A stretch of DNA of 52,491 nucleotides from Ottowia flava (GTDB taxonomy: Bacteria > Pseudomonadota > Gammaproteobacteria > Burkholderiales > Burkholderiaceae_C): assembly GCF_008017535.1 (NCBI RefSeq), contig NZ_VRUA01000023.1, positions 1 through 52,491 on the forward strand. Direction: 5' to 3'. The notes beneath the pieces were generated by a model that had not been told where the DNA came from, did no database searches, and saw nothing but the letters and a program-made list of their open reading frames with translations. Positions 3,764 to 50,726 of this stretch are shown piece after piece (within the stretch, counting starts at the first letter, position 1; each line of letters starts with the position of its first letter). A program made the translations under genes and the position numbers.

Positions 3764-4465
3764 TCAGAAGAACGCGGTTTCGCTTGTCGACTGGGGTTTG
3801 GCGTCCATCTTGAAGCGCTGAACGATGCCGTCCAGCAGCTGGCGATGAAAGTCCAACTTCGATTGCGCCTTGGTGAGGTTGATCAGCTTGGCTTCCTTGA
3901 TGCCCATGTCCATGAGCTTCTTCGCTGCCTCATCAGCACCGGCCTGGGCCTGCTTCCACAGACCCGGTATGGGACTAAGCAGCTGGTCTTGGTCGTCTTT
4001 GACGATGCAGTTGTGGTTCGCGAACATGCGGCCGTTGCGCTCGACAGGCGAGATCGTTGGTCGGATGATGAGCCACTGGCCAGGCTGCACGCTTGTGATG
4101 CGCTGGATCAGCTGCAGCGTCATCTCATGCGCCAGTTCGAGACTGATGACATGAGGATCTGAGCTGTTTTCCGAAAAGGCCAGCCGCATCTTGGGATACA
4201 CGTTGCCACGCGCATCCTTCGTTTCGGCGTAAAAGACACCCGTCAAGCGCCCGGAGAACACTTCGACGATGCCATCGATGGCTTCCAGTGCTTCGCGTGC
4301 CAGGACCGTGGGCCCTTGCGGCTCGTCGAAGCTGTGGCCAGCCTTCCAGCGCTCATCCGTGGTCATTTTGCGAGCCGAGTTGAGTGCTTCGTTCGTGGCC
4401 CTGGCCATCGGGTCATTGCCCGTGTGTACCAAGCAGCCAGCGACGGGGTTGTAGGTTAAAAACAT
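3764..4465 (-). CDS. Hypothetical plasmid backbone protein, 233 aa
   Basis: A soluble protein of unknown function that starts MFLTYNPVAGCLVHTGNDP. It has a DGIVEVFSGRLTGVFYAETKD strand region, a QLIQRITSVQPGQWLIIRPTISPVERNGR core, and a Lys-rich helical C-terminus. No enzyme motif or membrane segment is visible. It follows the von Willebrand factor A protein gene (4652-6460) in the same direction and is a separate cassette with its own leader (copy 2) and terminator. The start agrees with GGAGAT 5 bases before the ATG. Confidence 0.7.
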   Translation of the reverse strand: MFLTYNPVAGCLVHTGNDPMARATNEALNSARKMTTDERWKAGHSFDEPQGPTVLAREALEAIDGIVEVFSGRLTGVFYAETKDARGNVYPKMRLAFSENSSDPHVISLELAHEMTLQLIQRITSVQPGQWLIIRPTISPVERNGRMFANHNCIVKDDQDQLLSPIPGLWKQAQAGADEAAKKLMDMGIKEAKLINLTKAQSKLDFHRQLLDGIVQRFKMDAKPQSTSETAFF

Positions 4466-4469
4466 GTGA

Positions 4470-4530
4470 ATCTCCTGCGAATGGATCGCACAGCGGCCGT
4501 GAGGCCAGGTTGAACATGCGTGGAAATGGC
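4470..4530 (-). promoter_or_regulatory. SD-sequestering leader motif, copy 2
   Basis: Transcript sense: arm ATTTCC, box ATGTTCAACC, inner hairpin GGCC/GGCC around TCAC, then GGAGAT. The arm differs from the usual ATCTCC by one C-to-T change, which still pairs through a G-U wobble. It sits upstream of the 3764-4465 gene. Confidence 0.7.
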
Positions 4531-4612
4531 GGGCGTGGGAAATGCGCCGCCGGCGTGGCTCCGGTGTTCGCGCGCGCGAAACGGCCGCGCACCCCTACGG
4601 CCGACCTGGCCG

Positions 4613-4646
4613 AAAAAAATGGAGCCCTGCGTGAACAGGGCTCCAT
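4613..4646 (-). terminator. Terminator after the VWA-domain gene
   Basis: Perfect 11-bp stem ATGGAGCCCTG/CAGGGCTCCAT followed on the minus strand by T residues; 6 bases past the stop codon. Confidence 0.88.
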
Positions 4647-4651
4647 TGGGA

Positions 4652-6460
4652 TCAGTCGCTGATGGCAGCTTCAACGGCCTTGACCGTGTAATCGACCAGG
4701 CTTGAGGTGGTCAAACAGCGCTCGGCCTTACCCTCGTAGTACAGCGAGTGGGCATCACCTAGTAGCAAGGTCACCACGTCGATGCCGAGTTCCGCCGCAT
4801 CTTGATAGGCAGCGTCCAAAACGCCCGTGTCGTTGGTGTCACCGTCGGTGATGAGAACGACAAGGCGTCGCTGCTGCGTTAGCTGCGACGCTTCTGCAAC
4901 CGCCTGGTACAGCGCTGCGCCGGCACTCGTCCCACCGCACGGGTATGGCACTAGCAGCTTTCGCCGATTCGTGCTCCAGTCCTCATCGGTCAGTTTGATC
5001 GACTTCGGGCTGTTGTTGAAAGCGAAAGCAGAGAACGGCACGCCGTACTCGTCCAGCAGATCAGCCAATCCGACGTAGAGTCCATTCGCCGCAGTTGCCC
5101 GCGAGGTTGGATCCTGGCGTGAGATCGGATCATTCATGGACGTGGAGAAGTCGCACATCAGCACCACGCCGGTGTCGATGCCTCGCGCATGCGACTTGTT
5201 GGTGAACACCCGCAAGTCGCAAGTGGGAACGCGATTCAAGTGCCGACTGCTCAGTCGCTTGCCCACCAGTCCAACATGGCGACCAGCGTGGGTCATGGTT
5301 TTGAGCACGTCGATGATGTCTTCCGAACGACTTGCGATTCGATTCGCAAGAGCCAAGGTTGCTGGCTGGGGAGGCAGCAACGTCGGCCATTCACCGCAAG
5401 TCGGATCGCTGACAGCCTTGCGGGTGTGCTTGGAATCGTTCATCTCTTGCGAGGCCGCCTCCGTGATTTCCACCACTGGCATTTCATCGTTCGACTGCTC
5501 CAGGAGCTTTCGAGCGGCTGACTGGATCTGCTCTCCGTCAGCGCATCCAGCGCCGGCGCCGCGGCCTTTGCTGGGTTTGCTGCCCTTGCCTTTGCCTTTG
5601 CCTTTGCCTTGGTCTTCGGGCTGACCATCGCCGGCGCCATCCCCATCACCACCCTGCTCTTCGGCAGATTCGGCCTCGCCTTTGCCCTTCGCTTTGGCTT
5701 TACCTTTGGCTTTGCCTTTGCCCTTCCCCGTCCCTTGGCTTTCGCTTTGGGCAGAGTCGGGCTCACCAGCTTCCCCGTTGGGTTCGCCGTCCGACGGTTG
5801 CGGTAGCTTGCCGACGGCCGCGGCTTCGACGAGCCGCTTGATCTGCAGGGTCAGCTCCAGCGTGTCCTGTGTGGACTGCGCCGAGGCGGACTTGGCTGCA
5901 ATCGCGTAGATCTGCGTCCACAGCGGGCCAAAGGCCTGCTGGCAGAGCTTTTCATAGGCAGCTGCGCGCGAGCCCAGGTATTGAGCCTGGCCTGGCAGCA
6001 AGTTCGACCGACAGACGATGAGCAGTGCGTTGACGAGCATGGTTGCTCCGTCTTCAGGCTGGAGGTGTTGTGGCTCGGGCCCGAAGAAGTCTTCCGTGTC
6101 GACCAACACCCGAACAAGCTCGCTGAGGTTGTTTTTCGTGCCCGGCTTGCTGGCCATCGCCATCGTCTCGATGAAGATGTCCTCCAGGATGTTGTGAATG
6201 GCTGCGTCGAGGTTGGTGATCTTGTGATCGGCGAACTTCTGCACCCAAACCTTGAAGTCGGTGAACCGACCGTGGCCGAGAGCTTCATGGTCCATCATTC
6301 CGCGAACGATGATCTCGTCTTTGGGATCATTGGACAGTCCCCAGTGCTGGGGTATGCGAATGCACTTGCCATCGCAGCTTGCTGTGGAGACGGCCTCGAA
6401 GGCCACGTCCATGTGCACGCTGTTGGCGAGGATCTTCGCCAGGATTTTGAGGTTGCGCAT
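4652..6460 (-). CDS. CobT-like von Willebrand factor A domain protein
   Basis: 602 aa. Residues 1-220 include a conserved RGMMDHEALGHGRFTDF motif resembling the metal-site region of CobT-like plasmid proteins. Residues about 225-320 are a low-complexity Gly/Lys/Ala/Glu linker made of repeated KGKGKAKGK and acidic blocks. The C-terminal third is a VWA domain with a MIDAS motif (CDFSTSMND), a downstream threonine loop (CGGTSAGAAL) and ITDGDTNDTG. VWA proteins of this type usually work with an AAA+ (MoxR/CobS-like) ATPase; none is visible in this window. Its leader (copy 3) and terminator make it a single-gene cassette. ATG at 6460 has GGAGA 7 bases upstream. Confidence 0.8.
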   Translation of the reverse strand: MRNLKILAKILANSVHMDVAFEAVSTASCDGKCIRIPQHWGLSNDPKDEIIVRGMMDHEALGHGRFTDFKVWVQKFADHKITNLDAAIHNILEDIFIETMAMASKPGTKNNLSELVRVLVDTEDFFGPEPQHLQPEDGATMLVNALLIVCRSNLLPGQAQYLGSRAAAYEKLCQQAFGPLWTQIYAIAAKSASAQSTQDTLELTLQIKRLVEAAAVGKLPQPSDGEPNGEAGEPDSAQSESQGTGKGKGKAKGKAKAKGKGEAESAEEQGGDGDGAGDGQPEDQGKGKGKGKGSKPSKGRGAGAGCADGEQIQSAARKLLEQSNDEMPVVEITEAASQEMNDSKHTRKAVSDPTCGEWPTLLPPQPATLALANRIASRSEDIIDVLKTMTHAGRHVGLVGKRLSSRHLNRVPTCDLRVFTNKSHARGIDTGVVLMCDFSTSMNDPISRQDPTSRATAANGLYVGLADLLDEYGVPFSAFAFNNSPKSIKLTDEDWSTNRRKLLVPYPCGGTSAGAALYQAVAEASQLTQQRRLVVLITDGDTNDTGVLDAAYQDAAELGIDVVTLLLGDAHSLYYEGKAERCLTTSSLVDYTVKAVEAAISD

Positions 6461-6465
6461 TTTTT

Positions 6466-6514
6466 TCTCCAGTGTTCCGATCGGTGATCGGGGTTGAACA
6501 TGGCTGGAGATGGC
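6466..6514 (-). promoter_or_regulatory. SD-sequestering leader motif, copy 3
   Basis: Transcript sense: arm TCTCCAG (6504-6510), box ATGTTCAACC, perfect inner hairpin CCGATC-ACC-GATCGG, then CTGGAGA (6466-6472) as Shine-Dalgarno and perfect 7-bp partner of the arm. It precedes the VWA gene. The divergent small-RNA promoter begins only 16 bases away. Confidence 0.78.
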
Positions 6515-6529
6515 GCGGCGGAGAAACGC

Positions 6530-6557
6530 TTGCGCTGAGGGAGCGCATCCCTATAAT
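6530..6557 (+). promoter_or_regulatory. Sigma70-like promoter of the small RNA
   Basis: TTGCGC (6530-6535), 16-bp spacer and a consensus TATAAT (6552-6557). No protein gene follows on the plus strand; transcription from here would start near 6563-6565 and run about 100 bases to a terminator. The sequence around the -10 also reads ATTATAG on the other strand, so a promoter for the divergent VWA cassette may overlap it. Confidence 0.7.
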
Positions 6558-6562
6558 CGAAA

Positions 6563-6661
6563 GCGGAGAGTTGAGGAGACTGTGCGAGGCCACTCCGCCT
6601 CGGTTGAACAGCCAGTCGCCGTCAATGATCTGAAGGGCCGCTCCATGAGCGGCCCTTTTTA
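6563..6661 (+). ncRNA. Candidate trans-acting small RNA complementary to the leader box
   Basis: About 98 nt between a consensus -10 and a strong terminator. The 5' part can fold in two exclusive ways: GCGGAG (6563-6568) with CTCCGC (6593-6598), or CGAGGC (6585-6590) with GCCTCG (6597-6602). Next comes CGGTTGAACAGCC (6601-6613), which includes GGUUGAACA, the exact complement of UGUUCAACC in the leader motif. The 3' end is a perfect 9-bp stem GGGCCGCTC-CAT-GAGCGGCCC plus T5. Continuous pairing is 11 nt with copy 1, 8 nt in the weakest copies and 9-10 nt in the rest. The role as regulator is inferred. Confidence 0.6.
6635..6660 (+). terminator. Terminator of the small RNA
   Basis: Perfect 9-bp stem with a CAT loop followed by TTTTTATT on the plus strand only. 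The minus strand lacks a T tract here, and the minus-strand SLOG gene has its own terminator at 6674-6711. Confidence 0.88.
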
Positions 6662-6673
6662 TTGGCCGAACCA

Positions 6674-6711
6674 AAAAGAAAACCACCGCCCGCGGATGCG
6701 GGAACGGTGGT
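6674..6711 (-). terminator. Terminator after the SLOG-domain gene
   Basis: ACCACCG/CGGTGGT outer stem with an inner CCCGC/GCGGG stem; the minus strand continues TTTTCTTTTTGG. It is 6 bases past the stop. Confidence 0.82.
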
Positions 6712-6716
6712 GTGGA

Positions 6717-7178
6717 TCAGAACCAGCCCTGCTCTTTGCCCGCAGCCAGGAACCGATCTCGCCAGTTCGGAGATCTGAGGTTGAACACGGGTACCTGGTG
6801 ATGGGACGCGATCGAGATGGCCTGGCCAGTGCCGCCGGTCGCCCTTGTACGGGTCGCGTGTGACTCGCATCCGTCCTGTGTCCAGCACAACACGAACAGC
6901 GACGGCGTGGCCATCTCGTGGCCCAGGATCTGCATGGCGTTTCGCGCCATCAGGGCGCGTGCGCCGCGGCTCAATGACTGCGGTGCTGGGTGAAACTGAT
7001 CGACGCTTGCCAGCGCGGCCGGCGGCGTCTTGAAGACCTGTGGACGGCCTTGGAAGCCATCCCAGGGCACGAAGATAACCTTGGCGTCAGCTCGGTCGAC
7101 GCCGCTTTCAAAAGCGGTGTCAGCGCCAGGTGCTGCGCCGCTGCGCAGGACCAGGCCGCGATCGGCCAGCCAAGTCAT
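6717..7178 (-). CDS. SLOG/DprA-like nucleotide-binding protein, N-terminus apparently damaged
   Basis: At least 153 aa with LRSGAAPGADTAFESG, the Gly-rich motif of SLOG (Rossmann-like, DprA/LOG-related) proteins often carried by phages and plasmids, and KVIFVPWDGFQGR. Family members normally begin with a short strand and a Gly-Ser-Arg loop 25-30 residues before this motif; here the frame opens at MTWLADRGL. A good Shine-Dalgarno (GAGGAACGCC before ATG at 7257) exists upstream but in another frame. A frameshift or truncation is therefore likely. Whether a product is made is uncertain. Confidence 0.6.
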   Translation of the reverse strand: MTWLADRGLVLRSGAAPGADTAFESGVDRADAKVIFVPWDGFQGRPQVFKTPPAALASVDQFHPAPQSLSRGARALMARNAMQILGHEMATPSLFVLCWTQDGCESHATRTRATGGTGQAISIASHHQVPVFNLRSPNWRDRFLAAGKEQGWF

Positions 7179-7454
7179 CCCACGGCCAGCGCTTGCGGAC
7201 CAGAACCGGAATGCAAATCAGCTTGCCTGTGGAAGGCAATGTAAAACAGACTCTCATGGCGTTCCTCGCAGGGATTGGGTTGTCGGCCCGCGCGCCGCGC
7301 GGGGTGGCTCGCAGGCAAATTGCTGGAGCAGGGATACGGTATATTTTTTTTGGAGCGATTCGCGCATCCATCCTGCGAAGGAAGGGCCGTCAGCAAAAGA
7401 AGGCACCCGCCATCGGTAGGGTTTCCTGGAGCGCCTACATAGTCTAAAGTTCTA

Positions 7455-7537
7455 ATGGGCGCGCAAGCGCCCCGCGCCTCTCCTCCCTGAGCGCGGTTGG
7501 CTCGGCAACTTGGGCTCCCGAGTGGAGCCCTTTTTTT
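7455..7537 (+). ncRNA. Candidate small RNA with anti-Shine-Dalgarno loop
   Basis: Four consecutive hairpins are visible. GGGCGC-GCAA-GCGCCC (7457-7472) has a GNRA loop. CGCGC/GCGCG (7473-7495) exposes a loop containing CUCUCCUCCCU. GTTG/CAAC (7496-7509) is short. GGGCTCC/GGAGCCC (7512-7530) plus T7 is a terminator. No open reading frame fits. Promoter elements are weak (TCTAAA near 7443). C-rich loops like this in other bacterial small RNAs bind Shine-Dalgarno sequences. The exact 5' end is a guess. Confidence 0.5.
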
Positions 7538-29911: not shown

Positions 29912-30124
29912 TTATGAGCGCGTCACATTTTGCACGGCGTTCCCGACACTGACACAAATTCTCTCTTGATCGTGCGTATGGAAACTGAGCCCGAACGCCC
30001 ACCCACCACAGACGAAGCGGCCGGCATGGCCTGGTGGAACTCGCAAACCGAGCTGGTGCGCGAGTTCTGGTTGCGGGTGGCCAATTCGGCGCGTGCTCCG
30101 GATGCCTGGGTGTGAGGTGGACAT
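29912..30124 (-). CDS. Possible small protein behind leader copy 5
   Basis: 70 aa (MSTSHPGIRSTRRIGHPQPE...), opened by an AAGGAGA Shine-Dalgarno within a perfect leader hairpin. It lies antisense to the AWW-motif gene, and only one of the two is likely to be a conserved protein; composition favours the plus-strand frame. It is listed because the leader strongly marks a translation start at 30124. It could be a residual frame left after replacement of the original cassette gene. Confidence 0.3.
   Translation of the reverse strand: MSTSHPGIRSTRRIGHPQPELAHQLGLRVPPGHAGRFVCGGWAFGLSFHTHDQERICVSVGNAVQNVTRS
29978..30115 (+). CDS. Small AWW-motif accessory protein, 45 aa
   Basis: METEPERPPTTDEAAGMAWWNSQTELVREFWLRVANSARAPDAWV: the core E-A-G-M-A-W-W-N-x-x-(T/S)-...-W-L-x-x-A-x-S-A-x-x-x-D-A-W is one I have seen in many small proteins of ICEs and plasmids, where it often continues with an AFK tail. 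It is plus-strand and overlaps the minus-strand frame that follows leader copy 5. There is no clear RBS. Function unknown. Confidence 0.5.
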   Translation: METEPERPPTTDEAAGMAWWNSQTELVREFWLRVANSARAPDAWV

Positions 30125-30127
30125 AGG

Positions 30128-30173
30128 TCTCCTTGAGTGGCGCACAGCGCCGGTTGAACATTCAAGGAGATGG
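30128..30173 (-). promoter_or_regulatory. SD-sequestering leader motif, copy 5
   Basis: Transcript sense: arm TCTCCTTGA (30162-30170), box ATGTTCAACC, perfect inner hairpin GGCGC-TGT-GCGCC, then TCAAGGAGA (30128-30136). The 9-bp outer stem is perfect. The stop codon of the 17-codon frame from copy 6 lies inside its 5' arm. Confidence 0.78.
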
Positions 30174-30215
30174 TGTCGCGAACGGAATGCGCTGAATGGG
30201 TCCAATGCTGACCAT
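30162..30215 (-). CDS. 17-codon open frame between leader copies 6 and 5
   Basis: ATG 30215 follows ACTGGAGA of leader copy 6 and encodes MVSIGPIQRIPFATPSP; its TGA falls in the 5' arm of copy 5. Translation of this frame would bring ribosomes into the copy 5 hairpin and could open it. It may be a leader peptide or merely the remains of a deleted cassette. Confidence 0.3.
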   Translation of the reverse strand: MVSIGPIQRIPFATPSP

Positions 30216-30219
30216 GATT

Positions 30220-30261
30220 TCTCCAGTTGCCCGGCGGGCGGTTGAACATCACTGGAGATGG
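30220..30261 (-). promoter_or_regulatory. SD-sequestering leader motif, copy 6
   Basis: Transcript sense: arm TCTCCAGT (30251-30258), box ATGTTCAACC, inner hairpin GCCC-GCC-GGGC, then ACTGGAGA (30220-30227) as perfect partner and Shine-Dalgarno for ATG 30215. Confidence 0.77.
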
Positions 30262-31236: not shown

Positions 31237-31272
31237 GCGAAACCGACGCGGGCCGCAACAACTTCTTGCATA

Positions 31273-31318
31273 GCCACTCCTACCGCCTTGAAGGCGCGTT
31301 GAACATGAAGGAGATGGC
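31273..31318 (-). promoter_or_regulatory. SD-sequestering leader motif, copy 7
   Basis: Transcript sense: arm GCCATCTCCT, box ATGTTCAAC, perfect inner hairpin CGCCT-TCA-AGGCG, then AGGAGTGGC. The outer stem is GCCA/TGGC plus CTCCT/AGGAG with one bulged T, so the pairing is kept although the Shine-Dalgarno differs from GGAGA. It opens ATG 31271, 70 bases before the PemK-operon antitoxin start. Confidence 0.7.
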
Positions 31319-31388: not shown

Positions 31389-32027
31389 TCATGCTGCAAC
31401 AGCATCAGGCTCAGCAGCCGGCACCGCGGCGATCCAGGCCGGCACGCAAACCTGCTCGTTCGTGCCGCGCGTTGGCATGACGATGGCGAACGCTCGGCTG
31501 TCGATCAACATCATGCCGGGTGAATCGGTCCCGTTGTGCGAGAGATCGCTGCGTGACTTGAAGGGCGGCTTGGTGCCACGGTTGATGGCATCTCGCGCGG
31601 CGTAGACAGCAGCAAGATGATCAGGCTGAAAGTAACCTGCCTGCCCCGTCGTTCGCGCTGGAACAACGCGACGCCAATCGCGGTACTCGCCGGCAACCTC
31701 GAACGCGGACTTGTCGTTCACAGTGACCGTTCGCAGACCTTTGCGGTTGTGCTCACTCTTCTCGTTTTGGGTGACCGTGATGGCCACGAGGCCCTTGGCG
31801 GTCGGCGTGATTTTTGCGATGAGCTCGCGAGGCACGACGACTTGAGCCGACGGCATGGATTCCGCGCCGATGTGGTGTGCGAAGAGCGCGTGGCCGTCGG
31901 TCGTGACCAAGAACGCGCCTTGCGGGCCAGTTTCGATCAGCGCGCCGTTCACCCAGTCGCGGATGTCGGTCTTGCCCATGCACTGCACGGCCGCGGCGAC
32001 GTATTTGGGTTCGATGAAAATTTTCAT
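31389..32027 (-). CDS. DNA polymerase III beta-clamp-like plasmid protein
   Basis: 212 aa. The pattern TDGHALFAHHIGAE...AQVVVPRELI...VAGEYRDWRRVVPA is that of sliding clamps (DnaN has TDGHRLA, ...FPDYRRVIP). Only about 60 percent of a full clamp (366 aa) is present, two domains at most, so a functional ring would need a trimer, as in eukaryotic PCNA, or partner subunits. It may serve plasmid replication or the plasmid's translesion polymerases. ATG 32027 has AGGAGAT 4 bases upstream, inside leader copy 8. Confidence 0.7.
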   Translation of the reverse strand: MKIFIEPKYVAAAVQCMGKTDIRDWVNGALIETGPQGAFLVTTDGHALFAHHIGAESMPSAQVVVPRELIAKITPTAKGLVAITVTQNEKSEHNRKGLRTVTVNDKSAFEVAGEYRDWRRVVPARTTGQAGYFQPDHLAAVYAARDAINRGTKPPFKSRSDLSHNGTDSPGMMLIDSRAFAIVMPTRGTNEQVCVPAWIAAVPAAEPDAVAA

Positions 32028-32030
32028 TGG

Positions 32031-32075
32031 ATCTCCTGCTTGGGGCGTTGCCCCGGTTGAACATGCAGGAGATGG
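32031..32075 (-). promoter_or_regulatory. SD-sequestering leader motif, copy 8
   Basis: Transcript sense: arm ATCTCCTGC (32065-32073), box ATGTTCAACC, perfect inner hairpin GGGGC-AAC-GCCCC, then GCAGGAGAT (32031-32039). Perfect 9-bp outer stem. The clearest copy of the family. Confidence 0.82.
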
Positions 32076-38463: not shown

Positions 38464-38465
38464 GG

Positions 38466-38513
38466 CTTCTCCTGTTTCGATGCTGGGCATCGTGTTGAAC
38501 ATGAGAGAGATGT
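38466..38513 (-). promoter_or_regulatory. SD-sequestering leader motif, copy 9
   Basis: Transcript sense: arm TCTCT, box ATGTTCAAC, perfect inner hairpin CGATGC-CCA-GCATCG, then GGAGA. The arm has T in place of the last C, kept as a U-G pair. Belongs to the split gene. Confidence 0.7.
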
Positions 38514-41308: not shown

Positions 41309-41914
41309 TCAGTGGTCGTCGACCGGCGGTTCAATCGTGTCGGTGCGGTACTCGGCCAAGAGCTCAACGGCTTCATCACCATGCGCGGCCAGCACATGGA
41401 CCGAGCCTGTCGTTGCGGTTTCCCAAAGGGCCAACAGATCGTCCACTTCGATGACTTCACTTTCGATGTAGTAACTCTCGTGCTTGCGCATGTCAGATGC
41501 CCAAAAGGAGCCCGAAGAGGCGATCACCAAGGCACCACCTTGCAAGCGGTACTCGTCCGTTTCAGGACCCCACCAGCCACCGAACGAAATTGAGGCTTCT
41601 GCGAGTGCCAGGGACTGAATCGCCTCTCGAACGGATTTGATTTTTTCGATCAGATCCACATCGACATCGAACGAGCAATAGGGCGGCGGATCGCCTAAAT
41701 CCAACGTCGCATGCGCCGGGGTGAGCACGGTGAACTTGTGCTCCTTCCACTCTGGGTTGAACTCCGACCGCCCGCAGTTTCGGCACAAACAGCTTTCGTT
41801 GTAGATCTCCGAACCTGCACGCCACTCGCCTGCTGCTCCGTCGAACTCCAGCGAGCCATCGGCCACCAATTGGTTGCTGCCGCAATGCGGGCAGACTGGT
41901 CTTTCCTTTTTCAT
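41309..41914 (-). CDS. Zinc-ribbon hypothetical cassette protein
   Basis: 201 aa. An N-terminal zinc ribbon is formed by CPHCGSN and CLCRNCGRSEF. A hydrophilic middle (DVDVDLIEKIKSVREAIQSLALAEASISFGGWWGPETDEYRL) and the C-terminal half have no motif I recognise. ATG 41914 (MKKERPVC) has AGGAG 6 bases upstream. In this cassette the leader box happens to be in frame with the gene. Function unknown. Confidence 0.68.
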   Translation of the reverse strand: MKKERPVCPHCGSNQLVADGSLEFDGAAGEWRAGSEIYNESCLCRNCGRSEFNPEWKEHKFTVLTPAHATLDLGDPPPYCSFDVDVDLIEKIKSVREAIQSLALAEASISFGGWWGPETDEYRLQGGALVIASSGSFWASDMRKHESYYIESEVIEVDDLLALWETATTGSVHVLAAHGDEAVELLAEYRTDTIEPPVDDH

Positions 41915-41918
41915 GGTC

Positions 41919-41955
41919 ACTCCTGATCCATGGTTGAACATGGTCAGAGATAGTG
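41919..41955 (-). promoter_or_regulatory. SD-sequestering leader motif, copy 10
   Basis: Transcript sense: arm TCTCTGA, box ATGTTCAACC, then TCAGGAG. The outer pairing is CTGA/TCAG plus wobbles and one mismatch, weaker than in other copies; only CCATGG, not a clear hairpin, follows the box. Confidence 0.58.
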
Positions 41956-43343: not shown

Positions 43344-43646
43344 TTAGAGGATGGCCTGCAGGCCTTTGTCGGCAATGATGTTCAGCAGCTTGAGTGCTGG
43401 ACCCGTTGGATGGGTTTCGCCTTGCTCCCACTTACGCACCGTCGATGCGGTTGTATGCAGGTGCAGGGCAAAGACCGGCTGGCTGAACTTCAAGTCCTCT
43501 CGAAGGCGCTTGATGTCTGCGGCATCCAATTCCCGCACCGGCGGCGGGCAGATAGCATCGAACTCGCGCATCGTCACCTTGTCAATCGCGCCAATCTCCA
43601 CGAGTGCGGCCAGGTCGCCACGCAGTGACTCAATGATCTTGCTCAC
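43344..43646 (-). CDS. XRE-family antitoxin (HigA-like), second locus
   Basis: 100 aa. The helix-turn-helix is at residues 52-80 (LREDLKFSQPVFALHLHTTASTVRKWEQGETHPTGPALKLLNII), a classical Cro/C1 pattern with W-E-x-G. ATG 43646 overlaps the toxin end by 17 bases. Toxin-first order. It probably represses through the 27-bp near-palindrome at 44023-44049. Confidence 0.88.
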   Translation of the reverse strand: MSKIIESLRGDLAALVEIGAIDKVTMREFDAICPPPVRELDAADIKRLREDLKFSQPVFALHLHTTASTVRKWEQGETHPTGPALKLLNIIADKGLQAIL

Positions 43647-44013
43647 AATGCACCTCCGCTAAAAAACCCGACTCCAAGGCCTTCGACAAGCCCTCGCGGG
43701 TCAACTCCAGAAACGCCTTACCGGCAAATTGCAGCGCTTTCCTCTCCTCCTGCGTGATGTTCGCCTTGTCGCTTTTGGGGAACCCATGCAGGAACACGTA
43801 TCGATCGCCCATCCTGGCCGACAGCAGCGTGCGATAGCCACCGCTTTTGCCACCACCTGACCGAGCTACACGCTTTTTGTAGAGAAAGCCTCCCAAGTCG
43901 GCGTCGATCAGGCCCATCGCCATTTCCTTGACCGCGTTGCATAGCGCGGCATCCGGCAATTTCTCACCTGCCTGCCAACGCGCAAAGTCCTTCCGCTTGA
44001 AAACGCTCGTCAT
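43630..44013 (-). CDS. RelE-superfamily toxin (HigB-like), second locus
   Basis: 127 aa. MTSVFKRKDFARWQAGEKLPDAALCNAVKEM, GFLYKKRVARSGGGKSGGYRTLLSARMGDRYVFLHGFPKSDKANI matches the RelE-like family with the G-G-K-S-G-G-Y-R-T motif. It is an mRNA interferase when active. The ATG overlaps the stop of a 20-codon frame (ATGA), so that short frame may set toxin translation. Confidence 0.86.
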   Translation of the reverse strand: MTSVFKRKDFARWQAGEKLPDAALCNAVKEMAMGLIDADLGGFLYKKRVARSGGGKSGGYRTLLSARMGDRYVFLHGFPKSDKANITQEERKALQFAGKAFLELTREGLSKALESGFLAEVHCEQDH

Positions 44014-44072
44014 TTCGAATTTGAAGTATACCCGTAACGGGCATACTTCGTCTTATCTAGTGGGTTATCCAT
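44010..44072 (-). CDS. 20-codon frame upstream of and coupled to the HigB-like toxin
   Basis: ATG 44072 (MDNPLDKTKYARYG...) follows AGGAAATTCC of leader copy 11 and ends in an ATGA overlap with the toxin start. Codons 9-17 are the operator palindrome itself, so the peptide sequence may be incidental; its translation would deliver ribosomes to the toxin start, placing toxin output under leader control. Confidence 0.45.
   Translation of the reverse strand: MDNPLDKTKYARYGYTSNSK
44023..44049 (-). promoter_or_regulatory. 27-bp near-palindrome, operator of the second HigBA locus
   Basis: Arms GAAGTAT/ATACTTC and CCCGT/ACGGG around a central base; only one base pair is mismatched. It lies 10 bases before the toxin ATG. 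Confidence 0.68.
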
Positions 44073-44075
44073 GGA

Positions 44076-44116
44076 ATTTCCTTTGGGCAGTGCCCTGGTT
44101 GAACATGACCAGAGAT
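44076..44116 (-). promoter_or_regulatory. SD-sequestering leader motif, copy 11
   Basis: Transcript sense: arm ATCTCT, box ATGTTCAACC, inner hairpin GGGC-ACT-GCCC, then GGAAAT. Five of six outer pairs form (one G-U, one mismatch). It precedes the 20-codon frame and the toxin. Confidence 0.62.
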
Positions 44117-50402: not shown

Positions 50403-50726
50403 GCGTCCAGCTTTTCACCGGAAGCGTCCAAGAATTCACCGGATGCGTCCAGCGTTGCACCGGCAAACGTCCAACTTCTCACCGCTTAGCACCTGGAGTG
50501 TCCCGCGCCCCGTGATCGCACAGATATGAGGCAATTTGGTGTGATTTCAGCGCTCACGCGGCCAGAAGATGGCCCCGTTAGACCGGATCAGGGCGTACTG
50601 TCCAGCTTTTCACCGGCAAAGTCTTGGCGGGTTCCGTAGGGCGAAGCGTCAAGCGTCCAGCTTTTCACCGGCAAATTTTGGGCGAATTCCGTAGGGCAAA
50701 GCGTCAAGTGTCCAGGTTTTCACCGG
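50403..50726 (+). repeat. Iteron array of the plasmid origin (seven copies)
   Basis: Seven 19-bp direct repeats of GCGTCCAGCTTTTCACCGG, with variants, start at 50403, 50424, 50445, 50467, 50598, 50653 and 50708. The first four are spaced 21-22 bp; the last three are 55 bp apart and separated by a second conserved spacer containing TTCCGTAGGGC(G/A)AAGCGTCAA. Iterons beside a Rep_3 gene bind the initiator. The last copies probably also repress the rep promoter. Confidence 0.92.

Follow-up and report, generated by a model that had tools for sequence, protein, structure and literature searches.

Trans-encoded base-pairing small RNAs (sRNAs) can block the Shine-Dalgarno (SD) region of their target mRNAs. 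The unit described here, at positions 6530 to 6661 of an Ottowia flava contig, resembles them in being a small intergenic RNA gene with a sigma70-like promoter, a terminator, a short seed, and many targets, but it is plasmid-encoded and its targets are plasmid genes that carry a dedicated structured leader tag. FinP (acting on traJ), CopA (acting on CopT), and similar plasmid antisense RNAs are cis-encoded opposite one target; the Ottowia RNA shares with them a plasmid-encoded, structured antisense RNA with a loop-exposed complement, but is not encoded opposite its targets, of which there are at least 10. DsrA and RprA activate rpoS by anti-antisense pairing upstream of the SD, and there, as here, the leader sequesters its own SD and the sRNA pairs upstream of it. 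The Ottowia pairing would differ in engaging a box beside the anti-SD arm, not the arm itself, and in using one sRNA for many leaders. Among plasmid-borne regulators, XrrA and XrrB are likewise plasmid-encoded sRNAs, of pXO1, acting in trans, with no repeated leader tag mentioned in the part of that paper considered here (PMC7843513), and RsmQ of pQBR103, as described in the part of its paper considered here, is a plasmid-encoded translational regulator that mimics host Rsm proteins, and is therefore a protein and not an RNA (PMC9928087). A keyword search of the main text of PMC9537497 did not return the RNA terms sought. In the open-access literature searched, we found no description of a plasmid-wide leader tag with its own sRNA. 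Base-pairing sRNAs are a known kind of regulator; as far as these searches reach, a plasmid-wide leader tag paired with a plasmid's own sRNA, the two differing jointly between plasmid types, is undescribed.

We propose a model in which the unit at 6530-6661 makes a plasmid sRNA of ~98 nt, whose unpaired GGUUGAACA would pair with the AUGUUCAAC[C/A/G] box of ten leaders. By covering SD and box together, it would act as one brake on a plasmid-wide gene set, likely keeping the ribosome-binding sites shut. We give this reading a probability of about 0.65.

The DNA analyzed, hereafter the window, is the whole contig of 52,491 nucleotides (C16). Because it carries Rep3, ParA-like, and ParB-like genes, a Tn3 transposase gene, and an integrase gene, we read it as plasmid sequence. 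Its closest relative seen is contig NZ_AUGX01000024.1 of Ottowia thiooxydans DSM 14619 (Comamonadaceae). Since two further contigs of the same genome as the window, C15 and C27, align to this O. thiooxydans contig too, C15, C16, and C27 are treated as parts of what is probably one plasmid.

The sRNA unit, on the plus strand, opens with a -35-like TTGCGC (6530-6535), matching TTGACA in three of six positions, followed after a 16-nt spacer by the -10 TATAAT (6552-6557), and it closes with an intrinsic terminator (6633-6661) consisting of a stem-loop at ~6633-6657 and a run of T's. The initial annotation had described this promoter, a putative intergenic transcript of ~98 nt, and a perfect 9-bp terminator; all were recovered, save that the terminator stem folds as 11 pairs. 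A strict consensus scan lists neither promoter nor terminator at this locus, while a looser promoter-plus-terminator scan, which found the -10, yields this single unit in the 52-kb window, two other units in C15, and none in C27. The intergenic unit is predicted to be transcribed, and the resulting RNA (6563-6661) overlaps none of the ten window leaders. Folded over 99 nt it reaches -50.7 kcal/mol (z -5.27); the 77 nt left without most of the terminator fold unremarkably (z -1.46). The predicted fold contains an inner hairpin, GAGGC-CACUCC-GCCUC (6586-6601), whose loop CACUCC (6591-6596) is anti-SD-like, and adjoining this hairpin lies the anti-box GGUUGAACA (6602-6610; GGTTGAACA in DNA). As had been claimed of the exposed stretch, the anti-box is complementary to the leader box, and it is exactly the longest unpaired run of the fold, with CACUCC the next longest; the terminator stem closes on CAU. 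Both GGA motifs of the RNA fall within predicted stems or at their margins, so that the RNA does not resemble a CsrA/Rsm sponge, which would carry several GGA-containing loops.

From promoter to terminator, the O. thiooxydans copy differs at one base, in the terminator stem, and the differences between the two sequences cluster just 3' of the unit; because the surrounding 4.4 kb is 99.4% identical, this conservation is a weak sign of selection. The Ottowia-type RNA is known in these two near-identical examples only. Rfam 15 gives no family at the gathering cut-off in the window, and its best score at this locus is Trp_leader (22.1 bits, cut-off 41). A blastn search of the sRNA against plasmids returned 58 records, and among the 20 listed, most match the terminator end only. 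A second intergenic unit, without an exact complement of the box, lies at ~44953 of C15 (TTGCGC-18-TATACT, ~110 nt, with a long inverted repeat) and is also found in O. thiooxydans.

The window leaders number ten, as initially counted, and all lie on the minus strand; eight carry the exact box and two differ in its last base. Three are found in the first 7 kb: 1709-1771 (box 1752-1760), before a 70-amino-acid (aa) open reading frame (ORF) with its start codon at 1708; 4466-4527 (box 4508-4516), before ORF 3764-4465, for whose protein five homologous proteins were found; and 6461-6511 (box 6492-6500), before the VWA/CobT-like ORF 4652-6460. Next come 30125-30171 (box 30152-30160), serving a 70-aa ORF that starts at 30124, and 30216-30259 (box 30240-30248), serving a 17-aa mini-ORF (30162-30215). 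The leader at 31272-31315 has one of the two changed boxes, TGTTCAACG (31297-31305), and precedes a PemK-like ORF starting at 31271, and 32028-32073 (box 32055-32063) precedes the clamp-like ORF 31389-32027. The other changed box, TGTTCAACA (38493-38501), is in leader 38464-38511, before a 36-aa ORF from 38463. The last two are 41915-41951 (box 41932-41940; 201-aa ORF starting at 41914) and 44073-44116 (box 44097-44105), the latter preceding a 20-aa mini-ORF (44010-44072) that overlaps the RelE ORF 43630-44013. This overlap with the RelE start suggests translational coupling of the toxin gene.

In the window, TGTTCAACC occurs 10 times against 0.36 expected: eight copies are in leaders, one is the antisense of the sRNA (6602-6610), and one is coding (6779-6787, in ORF 6717-7178). 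The copy at 6602 was considered as a minus-strand leader of its own and rejected, as TTT, arm, SD, and start codon are not in place. Searches that used the box gave 10 leaders in the window, 8 in C15, and 3 in C27, i.e., 21 in all, with 17 on the O. thiooxydans contig and 22 that are nonredundant. Their common layout begins with a TTT near -15, GCC, an ATYTCC arm, N4, and ATGTTCAAC[C/A/G]; a small hairpin usually follows, and then come an SD of the GGAG or AGGA type and the start codon. The N4 form of the pattern has 18 matches genome-wide, which are the 18 on C15, C16, and C27. When leaders on the three contigs were picked without the box, by ATCTCC-N15..45-GGAG-N3..12-ATG, 11 of 12 sites carried TGTTCAAC, against 1 in the arm-reversed control. 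An A precedes the box in every leader found and is not complemented by the sRNA; most leader patterns demanded this A, and a mismatch-tolerant search also gave no leader lacking it. Of the 21 leaders, 17 could be aligned to the O. thiooxydans contig after masking of the box (the exceptions are those at 32073, 31315, 30259, and C15 2811), and over these 17 the box differs at 0 of 170 positions and the upstream flank at 75 of 2,223, gaps included. Among 399 genomes of the family, more than two matches to the leader pattern were seen in the own genome alone, and in scans of genome and viral collections the filtered matches listed looked like chance, apart from O. thiooxydans pieces. In most leaders, the TTT precedes the arm by a constant interval (e.g., at 6512-6530 and 4528-4560 of the window), and between divergent leaders there is no recognizable sigma70 promoter. 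A palindrome, GTGTTCGCGCGCGCGAACAC, is found whole or mostly upstream of leaders (window ~4550-4590; C15 53608-53681), possibly as a regulator site. The idea that the box is the start codon of a short peptide was rejected, because its frame relative to the main start varies (12, 6, and 4 of the 22 leaders in the three frames).

The initial annotation had further posited a sequestering arm. Arms (AUYUCC plus N4) favor the SD region of their own leader over those of the rest, the summed pairing being -199.2 against a permuted mean of -162.3 (sd 7.35), a value reached by 0 of 100,000 permutations; 6 of the 22 leaders are exceptions, their arms pairing at most as well with their own SD region as, on average, with the others. 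Because of this preference, we read the sequences as RNA leaders that, as modeled, sequester their own SD in a stem with the box mostly unpaired beside it. Freeing the anti-box is predicted to cost 0.7 kcal/mol, and the predicted net sRNA-leader energy averages -8.6 kcal/mol over the 22 leaders, 21 of them falling below -5. The proposed helices of 8 to 11 bp were confirmed in silico. The unpaired seed of the one RNA is thus complementary to ten leaders in the window and to 21 on the plasmid, over three contigs, which is more than had been claimed, and such a multitarget seed is what is expected of a trans-acting sRNA. We infer that the sRNA would pair with the boxes in the cell. The Ottowia anti-SD is a 6-nt hairpin loop, and few SDs are matched beyond CUCC.

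Similar leaders were found on other large plasmids. A tblastn search with the VWA protein gave 60 plasmid records below 60% identity, of which 15 were followed for leaders and sRNA (designated here by W numbers). In 14 of these 15, the box-free pattern had 169 matches, compared to 6 for the reversed pattern, a total in which some matches overlap, some plasmids are close relatives (e.g., three from Cupriavidus), and a few matches will be due to chance. Other searches from the window were negative: distant blastn of 4400-7300 against plasmids returned no match, as did the clamp-like protein in the plasmids searched, and the VWA protein had no confirmed match in viral contigs.

An intergenic sRNA unit with the promoter TTGCGC-17-TCTAAT was identified on pBVIE01 of Burkholderia vietnamiensis G4 by seeking box complements beside a terminator in four plasmids; because its discovery depended on complementarity, its own match is not independent, and its support rests on conservation and on the 5-mer test given below. 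Its core matches by blastn 20 PLSDB records, itself included (12 Pseudomonas, 4 Cupriavidus, 2 Stenotrophomonas, 1 Burkholderia, and 1 Caballeronia), and none of the matches coincides with an annotated feature, one of the 20 records having no annotation at all. Further copies are present in Methylibium RPME01 (found by pattern), twice more in pBVIE01, and once more in Cupriavidus EM10. Aligned over 64 columns, nine distinct core sequences keep CUCCU, an anti-SD, and CUUGC invariant. The hairpin between them retains 95.6% of its pairs, while slid controls are at most 42% paired, and both sides change in 4 of 5 pairs, which 12 of 500 shuffles reach; of five covariation measures, one, the number of further pair types (4, shuffled mean 6.0), is not above shuffles. 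The Methylibium row is misaligned in the loop of this alignment. The CUUGC anti-box follows the core hairpin as GGUUGAACA follows its hairpin in the Ottowia RNA, and the succession of anti-SD, hairpin, and anti-box, read in antisense, mirrors that of box, hairpin, and SD in the leaders.

The CUUGC-type sRNA was found in 10 of the 15 plasmids (blastn revealed it in 9, and pattern and model in Methylibium). The initial annotation had expected leader-rich plasmids to carry a complementary RNA, and this holds for 10 of the 12 plasmids with at least nine leader matches; it fails for P. fungorum (10 matches) and Caballeronia SBC1 (9 matches), where box complement, unit scan, and covariance model gave no convincing sRNA. 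This model, R1, which was trained on the Methylibium copy among others, was run on W01, W03 (400 of 599 kb), W04 (save 710 bases), W05, W06, W07, W10, W11, and the Ottowia contigs, and W02, W13, and W14 were tested by blastn alone. R1 had no match in the window, C15, or C27, and its score for the O. thiooxydans contig was just 10.6 bits (E 9.8); the Ottowia RNA therefore does not fit the R1 model well. None of ten R1-type loci reached the cut-off of any Rfam 15 family, and a run of R1 over 184 genomes of the class, without a positive control, gave no match. The three related pBVIE01 sRNAs (L308 13477-13534, L305 16634-16690, and L304 18450-18507) have two AACUUGC and one ACCUUGC anti-box, and they perhaps serve different leader subsets.

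In 60 leaders of four plasmids with the CUUGC-type sRNA (W07, W11, W10, and W05, all kept after a redundancy filter, with W06 omitted for its closeness to W05), no 5-mer is more enriched than GCAAG, which is present in 22 against 1.48 expected from letter frequencies (z 17.1). Methylibium has it in 3 of 14 leaders and Ottowia in 1 of 12, and it is absent from the 10 P. fungorum and 9 Caballeronia SBC1 leaders, on whose plasmids no sRNA was found. TCA before GGAG, which matches CUCCUGA, is enriched in leaders but found in a minority. Moreover, leaders were compared by their duplex energies with six anti-box tails, shuffled leaders serving as the reference. Box-free selection of Ottowia leaders gave z -14.6 for the Ottowia anti-box and values from -0.8 to 0.3 for the five others; the z of -23.5 from box-chosen leaders is inflated by that choice. 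Leaders of W07, W10, W11, and W05 scored -5.6, -6.7, -3.1, and -4.0 with the Pseudomonas/Burkholderia tail, so that CUUGC-type anti-boxes suit the leaders of the Pseudomonas, Burkholderia, and Cupriavidus plasmids; for P. fungorum and Caballeronia SBC1, leader scores stayed between -1.5 and 1.2 with all six tails. The Ottowia tail also fits the leaders of W10 (Burkholderia) somewhat (z -3.6), and those of W07 reach -2.0. Because of the GCAAG enrichment and this cross comparison between plasmid types, box and anti-box, judged by sequence, differ together between the Ottowia and CUUGC types, and at that level seed and targets differ together between relatives, as expected of a trans-acting sRNA. 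The co-variation that the initial annotation had proposed to look for in other plasmids is therefore seen between the two types and not more finely: within the CUUGC type, leaders show no preference for their own plasmid's sRNA copy, the W05 (Cupriavidus EM10) leaders scoring -3.0 and -2.3 with their own tails, no better than -4.0 with the Pseudomonas tail, and the Methylibium leaders fit their own tail poorly (z -2.1, weaker than -3.4 with the Ottowia tail).

As to the outcome of pairing, we infer that repression is likely, and we give it about twice the weight of activation, because in both RNA types an anti-SD (CACUCC here, the invariant CUCCU elsewhere) lies 5' of the anti-box. This is the order required of an antisense image of box-then-SD, so that SD and box would be covered together. 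The same pairing could conversely activate, if the 9-bp box helix cannot fit the short closed loop, forces the outer stem open, and frees the SD in the manner of anti-antisense sRNAs. Since the leader's arm itself sequesters the SD, the default state would be off and would call for an activator, and in five predicted leader folds (32073, 30259, 3647 and 1911 of C15, and 15137 of C27) 0 to 2 nt join the inner hairpin to the 3' arm; on the opening of the SD stem by box pairing, nearest-neighbor folding cannot decide. We nevertheless regard activation as doubtful, since both RNA types carry the anti-SD in the order that would re-block the SD, and the invariant CUCCU would be hard to explain.

Alternatively, the leader motif, TTT-N9-GCC-ATYTCC-N4-ATGTTCAACC, could be a DNA element, such as the promoter of a plasmid-specific polymerase or sigma factor or an operator, to which the RNA complement would be incidental. 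The T's at -15, -14, and -13, kept in 21, 20, and 19 of the 22 nonredundant leaders, would suit this, as would the 74 bp between the arms of the divergent leaders on C27, which contain no TA dinucleotide. However, a DNA motif leaves the pairing of N4 with its own downstream arm unexplained, 3 of 22 leaders have N3 instead of N4, the anti-box belongs to another predicted unit, and between plasmids it varies jointly with the box, all of which make a DNA element unlikely. A site for a plasmid or host RNA-binding protein, with an unrelated or single-target sRNA, is still less probable: a strict loop sequence can be protein binding, but a decoy RNA would carry the box and not its complement, and the complementarity recurs in a second sRNA family. 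Pure chance is very improbable, for although a second nonleader copy lies in coding sequence, only 42 of 200,000 dinucleotide shuffles of the sRNA contain GGTTGAACA, the complement coincides exactly with the longest unpaired run in the single promoter-terminator unit of the window, and other plasmids offer a parallel case.

The wider picture, which we put forward tentatively, would be that large conjugative-type beta- and gammaproteobacterial plasmids run a private translational regulon, in which dozens of genes share one leader tag and answer to its plasmid-encoded antisense image, the two diverging jointly into separate RNA channels that could decide plasmid interference in one cell. Many genes of large plasmids are annotated as hypothetical, and a common RNA tag would group them into one regulon and give a handle on when they are made, e.g., upon entry into a new cell. 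Naturally diverged sRNA-leader pairs would also allow tests of how separate RNA channels evolve. Among the carriers of the sRNA family are Pseudomonas plasmids with names suggestive of resistance genes (e.g., p716811-VIM), and the family, speculatively, may bear on keeping the cost of resistance plasmids low.

Some further observations concern the surroundings of these elements. On both pBVIE01 and p716811-VIM, the immediate neighbor of the sRNA is a convergently oriented integrase/tyrosine-recombinase gene. In the window, 7471-7537 gives a sub-threshold match to the anti-hemB sRNA (RF02837; 31.5 bits, cut-off 49.5, E 0.0015). A leader and its downstream gene that adjoin in O. thiooxydans (83487-84158) lie apart at 30112-30205 and 6717-7178, which denotes a rearrangement. 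Finally, two tandem 55-nt repeats, 87% alike and iteron-like, are located at 50600-50709, upstream of the Rep3 gene.
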